From Myxococcales bacterium (GTDB taxonomy: Bacteria; Myxococcota_A; Polyangia; Polyangiales; JAFGIB01): a stretch of 57,991 nt of DNA. Both the position numbers and the translations under genes were made by a program. Shown piece after piece: positions 4,364-24,855 of the stretch; position 1 is the first letter of the stretch; each line of letters opens with the position of its first letter. The notes beneath the pieces are model-generated. The model was not told the origin of the DNA. It saw nothing but the letters and a program-made list of their open reading frames with translations, and searched no databases. The stretch covers positions 1 to 57,991 of the forward strand of contig JAPPOR010000676.1 in the NCBI GenBank assembly GCA_028817905.1. Direction: 5' to 3'.

Positions 4364-4879
4364 ATGGCGGAGCAAGACATCACCTGTCCGGTCTGTGGCT
4401 TCAACAATCCGGCCAGCACGGCGCGCTGCCGTTCCTGTGGTGCCAAGGTTGAGGCCCTGGTTGCCAACTACACGGCCGAGGAGGAGCAGGCGAGGCGTTA
4501 CCAGCAGGACAGCTTCGAGTGGAAGTGGGCATTGCTGGCCTCGGGTATCTATCTGGTCTTGCAGGCGCTCATCCTGGTCTTGGGACCATTGGCGATCGGT
4601 ACGTTTGACCCGCAGGGTTTGCCCGGGCTGATGATCTCGGCGGTGGTGTGGTTCTTCGGCGGCATCGCCGTCGGGATCATTTCTCCCGGAAAGACGTTCG
4701 TCGAGCCAGCGGCGGGGGCGATGCTGGCGGTTCCCCCCACGATCGCCTACTTGGCGCTTACGACCCCGGACGGCTTCCAGCCATCTATGATGGCGTACAT
4801 CATCTTCTCGCTGCTGGGCGTCATGGTGGCCCTGTTTGGGGCCTTCTTGGGAGAACGCATCCAGATGGCGTCGGCCTAG
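4364..4879 (+). CDS. Zinc-ribbon membrane protein of unknown function
   Basis: 171 residues. The N-terminus holds a zinc ribbon, CPVC then CRSC (residues 8-11 and 23-26), followed by a short charged linker and about four hydrophobic segments (near 54-75, 87-105, 113-131 and 141-162). It is probably an inner-membrane protein with the zinc ribbon in the cytosol. The start is well supported by GGAGG 9 bases before ATG. It is transcribed divergently from aspS. The stop codon TAG (4877-4879) lies within the CTAG end of palindromic element copy A. No specific family recognised. Confidence 0.85.
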   Translation: MAEQDITCPVCGFNNPASTARCRSCGAKVEALVANYTAEEEQARRYQQDSFEWKWALLASGIYLVLQALILVLGPLAIGTFDPQGLPGLMISAVVWFFGGIAVGIISPGKTFVEPAAGAMLAVPPTIAYLALTTPDGFQPSMMAYIIFSLLGVMVALFGAFLGERIQMASA

Positions 4880-5042
4880 CCCGGATCATTGACGACTTCG
4901 GCGTTGGATCGCGCAGGGATTCGGCTTCACAGGGGTTTCGACGACCGACGGGAATACTCCCCGTATTTTCTAGGGCGACGAAAGTCCTGTGGAGCCGAAG
5001 GACAAGCGAGGCGGCGTCGAAGTCGTCAATGATCCGGGCTAG
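4876..5042 (+). repeat. Palindromic dispersed element, copy A (167 bp)
   Basis: Imperfect palindrome with near-identical ends: AGCCCGGATCATTGACGAC at the left and its reverse complement at the right, the inverted match extending over about 25 bp and, with interruptions, across most of the element. Both ends are bounded by CTAG, and a further CTAG follows on the right. The right arm carries the GGAGCCGAAGGACAAGCGAG core shared by all copies. No open reading frame of note. It sits between the zinc-ribbon gene and the convergent ferredoxin gene, so it could also act as a hairpin at transcript ends. Confidence 0.85.
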
Positions 5043-5068
5043 CTAGGCCCACGGCTGTCCAAGCTGCT

Positions 5069-5377
5069 TCAGTCCACGCGGAAACGCGACGGATAGTCGT
5101 TTTTCTCTGCGCGGGTCTGCAATTCCTTGTCGTCGGCGTGCAGCTCCAGCGCGCGCTTGATCAGTGTTTCTTCGGTCTCGACGATGTCTGGATTCGGCAA
5201 GCAGCACTCCACCGGACACACGGCCTGACAGGCCTCGTGGTCATAGAAGCCCACACACTCGGTGCACCGCTTGGGATCGATGACGTAGTATTCATCGCCT
5301 TCGCTAATCGCCTGGTTGGGGCACTCTGGCTCGCAGGCTCCGCAGTTGATGCAGTCGTCGGTAATGTGGGTCGCCAT
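5069..5377 (-). CDS. 2[4Fe-4S] ferredoxin, Alvin/YfhL type
   Basis: 102-residue soluble electron carrier. Two cluster motifs: CINCGACEPECP (residues 9-20) and CTECVGFYDHEACQAVCPVEC (about 38-58). The extra residues between the second and third cysteines of the second motif, and the C-terminal tail, are typical of the Alvin (Allochromatium vinosum) ferredoxin type, which carries two low-potential clusters. GAGG stands 8 bases before the ATG. The electron partner cannot be deduced from the neighbours. Confidence 0.95.
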   Translation of the reverse strand: MATHITDDCINCGACEPECPNQAISEGDEYYVIDPKRCTECVGFYDHEACQAVCPVECCLPNPDIVETEETLIKRALELHADDKELQTRAEKNDYPSRFRVD

Positions 5378-10288: not shown

Positions 10289-10460
10289 CTAACCCGGATC
10301 GCTCGTTCACTCGCGTGTGGATCGCGCGGCGCACGGGTCAAGGGCTCCGGACGGCGACCAAACACTTGCTGGAGCCTCCAGCTGGAGCCTCCAGCTGGAG
10401 CCTCCTGGGCGGGAGCGAGCCCGGTGGAGTCGAAGGACAAGCGAGCCGGCGTTGAGGTCA
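10289..10460 (+). repeat. Palindromic dispersed element, copy D (degenerate, about 172 bp)
   Basis: Left end CTAACCCGGATC with a following GTGTGGATCGCGC, both matching the left arm of copy A. The right part GTGGAGTCGAAGGACAAGCG followed by AGCCGGCGTTGAGGTCA matches the conserved right arm of copies A and C. The terminal GATCCGGGCTAG is lost on the right. The middle is replaced by tandem GGAGCCTCCAGCT units. An old, decayed copy. Confidence 0.65.
10371..10405. repeat. 13-bp tandem repeat inside element copy D
   Basis: GGAGCCTCCAGCT at 10371-10383 and 10384-10396, plus a partial third unit GGAGCCTCC (10397-10405). Each unit contains the small palindrome GGAGCCTCC. Confidence 0.8.
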
Positions 10461-16968: not shown

Positions 16969-17140
16969 GGCCCCGGATCATTGACGACCTCGACGCCGCC
17001 TCGCTTGTCCTTCGACTCCACGGGACTTCGTCGCCCTAGGAATATACGCAGTAACACGCAGCATTCCTGTCGGTCGTCGAAAGCCCTGTGAAGCTGAACC
17101 CCGGCGCGATCCGACGCCGAAGTCGTGAATGATCCGGGCT
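16969..17140 (-). repeat. Palindromic dispersed element, copy B (about 172 bp, reversed)
   Basis: Starts CCCCGGATCATTGACGAC and ends GTCGTGAATGATCCGGGCT. Its left arm (CGCCGCCTCGCTTGTCCTTC) is the reverse complement of the right arm of copies A and C, so this copy is inverted. Unlike A and C, it is not bounded by CTAG on both sides. It lies between the YCF48-like lipoprotein gene and the TonB-receptor fusion gene. Confidence 0.85.
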
Positions 17141-23560: not shown

Positions 23561-23990
23561 GAAGCGCTGCCCGGGCGCCACAGGCGCGTGCTGAGCCAAG
23601 TCCAGGATGCCAAGGGCCAGCACAGGATGACCGGCGCGGGGCCTCGCTGGCAGGCGATTCAGCGGCTTTTTGAGGTGCAAGCCGGCGGGCTAGGCTTCAA
23701 CACCGGTCCAAGGGACCTGGAAGCCAACACCTTCGTGCGCCCGAAACCACAGCTTCTCACTGTTCTGAACGAGCGGGTGTCCCATGCCGACCTACAGGAG
23801 TGTGGGCATTGGGGGCAAGGTACGCGGCTATCTCACACACGCATATGCGCCCGCCCGAGATGCCGGCCTCCAAAAGAGCACCTGCACGCAGAGACGCATC
23901 CGGTTGTGTGCCAGCACTCTTGAGCGGAGGCTTGGATTAGTTAGAGTGATCCCTCGGGACAAGAGGCGGGCCGCAGGAACGGGGGTTCGT
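23561..23990. other. 430-bp region without a clear gene
   Basis: Frames are open here on the plus strand, but their composition is not protein-like and no ribosome-binding site supports them. The PilZ frame extends up to 23784 without a supported start. No repeat or convincing promoter seen. Confidence 0.5.
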
Positions 23991-24704
23991 ATGATTGCGC
24001 TGGCTAAAGAACGACGACGGTCTTTTCGTGTGCCGGTACCGGCGACAGCTTTTCTTTGGCGACATGGGCGCTTTGCGGGCGGATACCCCGTCAGCGACAT
24101 TTCGATCGGGGGCTGCAGCATCAAGCAGGGTCCATTTTGCGTGCTCGGGCAGCGCTACGAGATCACGCTCCGGGTCGACACCGGGAGTCAGTCGGCAAAC
24201 CTGCAGTGTCCGGCTCAGGTGGTACGCCGCAGCGGAGACACACTCGGCCTGCGATTCGTCGACACCAATGCGGGCGACGAGGACCGTATTCACGACATCG
24301 TCCTGGGATGCCTGGAGCAGCGGCCGGGTCAGTCGGGTCATATGCTGCTCGTGCATGCACGACCCGAGATGGTCACTTCGATGATTCGCGTGCTGGAATC
24401 CTCTGGCTTGCAGGTTCATCTTGCTTGCACGCCACTGCAGGCAGTATGGATCCTCGAGAACCGTCCGGACGACATCCACACGGCGATCGTAGCGCGGCGC
24501 CTCGGGCGTGCTGACGGCCGCGACATCGTGCGGTTCCTTTCGGAGCGCCATCCGCGCATTCGGCGAATTCTGCTCTCCGATGCGGAGTCGGTCGAGGAGC
24601 AGGAGTCTCCCGGGCGCGCGCATGAAGTGCTAAGCGGTCCGTTCGATCCCGACGGCCTCAAGCGCGTGTTGCCGAGCTCGTGGCAGCAGCCCCTGACGGC
24701 CTAG
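23991..24704 (+). CDS. PilZ domain protein with degenerate receiver-like domain
   Basis: 237 residues from ATG 23991, preceded by a GGGGG tract. The N-terminal PilZ domain (about 5-110) carries both c-di-GMP binding motifs: RRRSFR (8-13) and DISIGG (36-41). From about 120 the chain has the alternation of a CheY-like fold (HMLLVHARPEMVTSMIRVLE, QAVWILENRP, RRILLSDAE, EVLSGPFDPDGLKRVL), but the expected phospho-acceptor Asp is replaced (IVARRLGRADG). Probably a c-di-GMP effector controlling motility or envelope output. Its TAG stop lies in the CTAG end of element copy C. Confidence 0.85.
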   Translation: MIALAKERRRSFRVPVPATAFLWRHGRFAGGYPVSDISIGGCSIKQGPFCVLGQRYEITLRVDTGSQSANLQCPAQVVRRSGDTLGLRFVDTNAGDEDRIHDIVLGCLEQRPGQSGHMLLVHARPEMVTSMIRVLESSGLQVHLACTPLQAVWILENRPDDIHTAIVARRLGRADGRDIVRFLSERHPRIRRILLSDAESVEEQESPGRAHEVLSGPFDPDGLKRVLPSSWQQPLTA

Positions 24705-24798
24705 CCCGGAATATTCCCTGTATTGCCTAGGGTGGCGAAAGTCCTGTGGAGTCGAAGGACAAGCGAGGCGGCGTCGATGTCGTGAATGATCCGGGCTA
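24701..24798 (+). repeat. Palindromic dispersed element, copy C (98 bp, internally deleted)
   Basis: Begins CTAGCCCGGA and ends GTGAATGATCCGGGCTAG; CTAG at both ends. Keeps the right arm GTGGAGTCGAAGGACAAGCG followed by AGGCGGCGTCG, but about 70 bp of the left arm is missing compared with copy A. As with copy A, its CTAG end supplies the stop codon of the gene upstream. Confidence 0.85.
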
Positions 24799-24855
24799 GT
24801 GTCCATCTAGCGGTTTCACGGGGTGACGCCCGACGGGAATCCCCGCAACACCCGG

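Follow-up and report, generated by a model that had tools for sequence, protein, structure and literature searches.

The window analysed here, a 57,991-nucleotide stretch of DNA from a Myxococcales bacterium, contains three copies of a palindromic, MITE-like element (family F1), two of which directly adjoin the end of a gene. The first of these genes (4364–4879, + strand) encodes a zinc-ribbon membrane protein of 171 aa, for which no Pfam match was found. Its reading frame ends GCC TAG, and the stop codon (4877–4879) together with the preceding C forms the left-hand CTAG (4876–4879) of the target duplication around copy A, with CCCGGATCATTGACGAC next. The body of copy A (159 bp, 4880–5038, + strand) is full length and is closed by the right CTAG (5039–5042), next to which stands a second CTAG (5043–5046). 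A 4Fe-4S ferredoxin gene (5069–5377, - strand) is convergent with the zinc-ribbon gene, and this neighbour recurs in three relatives.

The second gene (23784–24704, + strand) encodes a PilZ and response-regulator-receiver protein of 306 aa and also ends GCC TAG. Its stop codon (24702–24704) lies inside the left CTAG of copy C (24701–24704), followed by CCCGGA. The stop-side arm of copy C is internally deleted, leaving a body of 91 bp (24705–24795, + strand), and the right CTAG is found at 24796–24799. Copies A and C each sit between convergent genes. An earlier note on this DNA had reported that both genes end GCC TAG, with the TAG inside the CTAG that abuts the element and CCCGGA next, and these coordinates were confirmed.

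Copy B (16972–17138, - strand) starts 9 bp past a TGA stop codon and lies between GGGC on one side and CTGG on the other; it is not linked with a stop, and neither side carries CTAG. In addition, a fragment of a single F1 arm is present at 10404–10459 (+ strand), and short tandem repeats of the TGGAGCCTCCAGC type (10371–10410) lie directly before it. Repeats of CTAGCTAG also adjoin elements, for example at 5039–5046 of the window, and a 1.6-Mb sample of the genome contains 26 instances of CTAG with CTAGCTAG after it, both strands taken together. These CTAGCTAG repeats are possibly remnants of earlier insertion and excision.

The 159-bp F1 body has arms that are 86% complementary over 37 bp, and over its full length the element shows a 73% match to its reverse complement. 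It is short, has terminal inverted repeats, occurs as dispersed copies and is associated with a target site duplication, all of which are features of MITEs, and is too short to encode a transposase. Matches to the F1 ends with two or fewer mismatches numbered 377 (191 + 186) in the 11.1-Mb genome, and the best 40 copies showed 90–100% alignment identity. No Rfam family matched within the window. RNA folding of copy A (4876–5042) gave -115 kcal/mol (z -13.7), while copy C gave -40.8 kcal/mol (z -3.5). Further CTAG-bounded families were found in the genome: F2 (CCCGCATCCATCACCAA, about 158 bp), F3 (CGACCTTG, about 80 bp) and F4 (CCCGGAT[GT]ATTCATGAAC).

Nature of the CTAG flanks

CTAG stands on both sides of most copies and is near-invariant at the ends, far beyond chance genome-wide. 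It could be either target sequence or part of the element. Where elements of any family abut each other, exactly one 4-bp spacer is shared in 19 of 20 cases. A CTAG carried at both ends would leave 8 bp between abutting elements, and the single spacer therefore favours a target. Taken alone, this test fits a 4-bp duplication as well as a duplication of TA only, the G and C then being constant bases of the element ends.

The distinction was addressed with the flanks that deviate from CTAG, the permutation test being restricted to copies in which neither flank is CTAG. Direct-repeat flanks were found in 5 of 13 such copies in the same genome (p=0.0013; one inverted match) and in 7 of 20 from other phyla (p=0.0021; two inverted matches). 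The matching pairs were CTAC/CTAC (three times), CTAA/CTAA and TTAG/TTAG in the former, and CTAA/CTAA (four times), TTAG/TTAG (twice) and TTAA/TTAA in the latter. When TA was intact on both sides, the left and right flanks co-varied at position 1 (p=0.003) and at position 4 (p=1e-6). The pattern YTAR accounted for 254 of 330 end tetramers.

The direct-repeat flanks and the co-variation favour a 4-bp over a TA-only duplication. Deviations are more frequent at the outer bases (40) than at the inner ones (22), and given these more variable outer bases a duplication of just the 2-bp TA inside a favoured CTAG keeps a residual chance; the stop codon would still predate the insertion in that case. 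Overall, there is strong support for CTAG being a duplicated 4-bp target (CTAG/YTAR) and not part of the element. The CTAG-like target preference proposed in the earlier note is thus borne out by flank, spacer and co-variation data. If CTAG is the target, a C-TAG in frame would have served as the stop codon even before the element arrived.

Stop codons among the insertion sites

The relation between insertions and gene ends was analysed in 140 stretches (1.616 Mb) that were picked largely around known copies, and the gene calls, made with a simple hexamer gene finder, are approximate. C-TAG was the commonest stop context in this sample, occurring in 278 of 1,212 predicted genes. Outside the elements there were 1651 CTAG sites, namely 1,042 in genes, 423 intergenic and 186 on stop codons, so that stops make up 30.5% of the non-coding sites (186/609).

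The insertion set consisted of 96 paired intact copies away from the edges of the stretches. A gene stop lay within the flanking tetramer in 37 of them, 57 were elsewhere in intergenic DNA and in two a gene reads into the element (run-ins). None was located inside a gene, though 1042 of the 1651 CTAG sites are genic. Compared with all CTAG sites the stop rate was in large excess (p=3e-11), whereas the comparison with non-coding sites was not significant (37/94 with the run-ins left out vs 186/609, p=0.10). For F1 alone there was no excess (18/54, run-ins again left out, p=0.65), and neither arm was preferred at stops (14/64 vs 12/53). The ratio of in-frame stops to run-ins was 37:2, compared with the 1:2 expected for a carried CTAG in random frame (p=7.5e-16).

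The link with stop codons is therefore accounted for by CTAG targeting combined with the loss of coding insertions. That two of the window's three copies sit on a stop is not unusual at the rate of 31–39% found elsewhere in the genome. Selection for insertion at gene ends, which had been put forward on the basis of these two copies, is superfluous for F1, although F3 does show an excess. Across the genome most copies have no link with a stop, but the link with CTAG holds. A search with joined flanks for empty sites within the genome returned no clean empty site and mainly element clusters.

In the F3 family (80 bp), unlike F1 and F2, 12 of 17 intact insertions were on a gene stop (p=0.001), and the end facing the stop was F3b in 13 cases and F3a in three. 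Examples are found at L162:1865-1944 and L195:8868-8948. F3 copies also frequently form direct repeats separated by about 100 bp of spacer. It is conceivable, though doubtful, that many genes have recruited F3 as a regular part of their 3' ends, where it would serve as a terminator or 3' untranslated module that has spread via its stop-overlapping target.

Whether the host genes had been shortened was examined by alignment with orthologues, a comparison suggested in the earlier note. The copy-A gene had a match in 32 of 38 searched genomes (its own included), with alignments reaching residues 166–171 of 171. Ten orthologues, whose DNA has no F1 end directly past the stop, share a conserved motif near the C-terminus, which reads GE-x-x-Q-M in the window protein and is followed by variable tails. 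The tail past the motif comprises 3 residues in the window protein and 10 in the two nearest relatives, within a natural range of 2–11, and the shortest (2 residues) belongs to a same-family genome without the element. As far as can be judged from the alignments, the copy-A protein is complete through the conserved region. A truncation was thus not apparent in the conserved core, while the tail leaves room for one: a few residues may have been lost, though nothing demands such a loss. In the copy-C protein, the receiver domain spans residues 188–293 of 306 and is essentially complete; matches from relatives extend to residue 300.

Distribution and search for a transposase

Matches to F1 were present in only three of the 57 genomes searched (the own genome and relatives), i.e. 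in the own genome and in two of the same family, where they were few and partial. The F4-type end has a much wider distribution. Exact matches to this 19-bp sequence (TAGCCCGGATTATTCATGA) were found in at least 116 stretches (L211–L326) from many phyla, according to record titles; among the matches listed were Nitrospirae, Planctomycetota, Acidobacteriota, Myxococcota, Gammaproteobacteria, Armatimonadota and others. The paired copies among these matches are short, mostly flanked by CTAG/YTAR and without a recognised transposase. No autonomous partner with the same ends was detected among the 116 loci listed from other genomes. A plasmid search yielded only weak hits in Persicobacter, a virus search gave no match, and a literature search for the end sequence found no report.

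With the profiles PF13701, PF01609, PF13358 (DDE_3), PF01797 and PF13546, no intact transposase was found in the assembly, which is fragmented at these repeats. PF01609 (DDE_Tnp_1), PF13701 and PF13358 were absent altogether; for DDE_Tnp_1, 9 of 14 genomes served as positive controls. A sub-threshold Y1 (RAYT-like) fragment is located at L070:1345-1662 (contig C60), with an F2-type end immediately after it. There is also a broken DDE_5 (PF13546) relic in L327 (contig C811:3547-3894), with no F1-type ends nearby.

Candidates for an autonomous partner in other genomes were rejected. Facing ends 1.2–2.1 kb apart enclosed host genes between two copies (L275 and L328) or, in a Nitrospira genome (L320:834-2180), an ORF inside an element copy that by its sequence resembles a transposase of the IS110 type. 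Contigs C19, C125, C128, C135 and others end about 20–260 bp from an element end. The assembly was probably interrupted by the repeats, and as a result it may lack some copies or an autonomous one.

Origin of the boundary stop codons

The earlier note proposed that the end of the element supplies the stop codon of the upstream gene. Our data indicate that cause and effect are most likely the other way round, CTAG being the target and the stop pre-existing. It is very probable that CTAG-targeting, MITE-like elements entered existing C-TAG stops and that each gene kept its own stop codon. The elements would be non-autonomous and depend on a cut-and-paste transposase whose recognition site is CTAG, or more loosely YTAR, and which duplicates these 4 bp. 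Insertions into coding sequence would be lost, leaving those at non-coding CTAG sites, about a third of which are formed by a gene's final C and its TAG stop. C-TAG stops would thus have been the insertion sites of copies A and C, and the duplication would have rebuilt CTAG on both sides, so that the stop was retained and a long hairpin gained at the 3' end. The transcript would then enter this hairpin, which may affect its termination or stability.

The opposite arrangement, in which CTAG belongs to the terminal repeat and the element truncated both genes by creating new stops, is very unlikely. It would agree with the near-invariance of CTAG at the ends and with the tail of the copy-A protein, which falls short of that in the two nearest relatives by about 7 residues and is a point against a retained stop. 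However, abutting elements have one CTAG in common rather than two, variant flanks are direct and not inverted repeats, in-frame stops prevail over run-ins (37:2), and the copy-A protein has its complete conserved core, as the copy-C protein has its complete receiver domain. It also appears unlikely that gene ends are favoured as such, at insertion or through retention, for instance by way of a hairpin that protects or terminates the transcript. The F3 insertions (12/17 on stops, p=0.001, 13 by F3b and 3 by F3a), the highly stable copy-A hairpin and the slight excess for all families pooled (p=0.10) point in this direction, but F1 shows neither an excess (p=0.65) nor an arm preference, and the outer and inner ends of F3 composites could create the end bias.

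Palindromic, intergenic elements in high copy number also recall REP/REPIN-like elements, which would depend on a RAYT (Y1) transposase recognising CTAG without target duplication, and a weak Y1_Tnp remnant (E=1e-3, below the cut-off) adjoins an F2 end. Y1 elements of the REP/RAYT kind are not known to produce a target duplication, whereas a 4-bp direct duplication was observed here, and the profile search found no intact RAYT in the assembly; this origin is highly improbable. Chance, i.e. two unrelated palindromes abutting TAG stops, might be considered with just two examples in the window, but both belong to a single family with hundreds of copies and the same arrangement recurs in 37 of 96 insertions, making coincidence barely credible.

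Insertion into pre-existing C-TAG stops, the preferred explanation, has a partial parallel in IS870 of Agrobacterium vitis, which according to the entry for Fournier et al. (1993; reference 93 in PMC6471742) needs CTAG to generate the stop codon of ORF1. As described there, both systems have a CTAG target and a boundary TAG stop composed of target sequence, but the target completes the large ORF of IS870 itself, whereas here the stop is that of the flanking host gene. The present element is, moreover, too short for a transposase. On this description IS870 is the nearest precedent for the boundary stop.

YTAR is also reported as the duplication motif of IS5 (PMC10359306) and as the target of IS711, in which TA is duplicated (PMC2266754). 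The elements resemble the IS5 type in their short YTAR/CTAG target with duplication, but differ in that a DDE_Tnp_1 transposase was not detected in this assembly. With bacterial MITEs at large and with IS630/Tc1-mariner elements they share the short length, terminal inverted repeats, many copies and intergenic location; the differences are the 4-bp CTAG/YTAR duplication, with co-variation beyond TA, and the absence of DDE_3 from the assembly.

In this high-GC genome C-TAG is the commonest stop context, and therefore non-coding CTAG sites are often stops, which the duplication restores. A transposase target that overlaps the stop codon would thus let inserts fill the genome with the proteins left intact. 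The occurrence of the TAGCCCGGATTATTCATGA end type across many phyla makes the identity of the mobilising enzyme a testable question.
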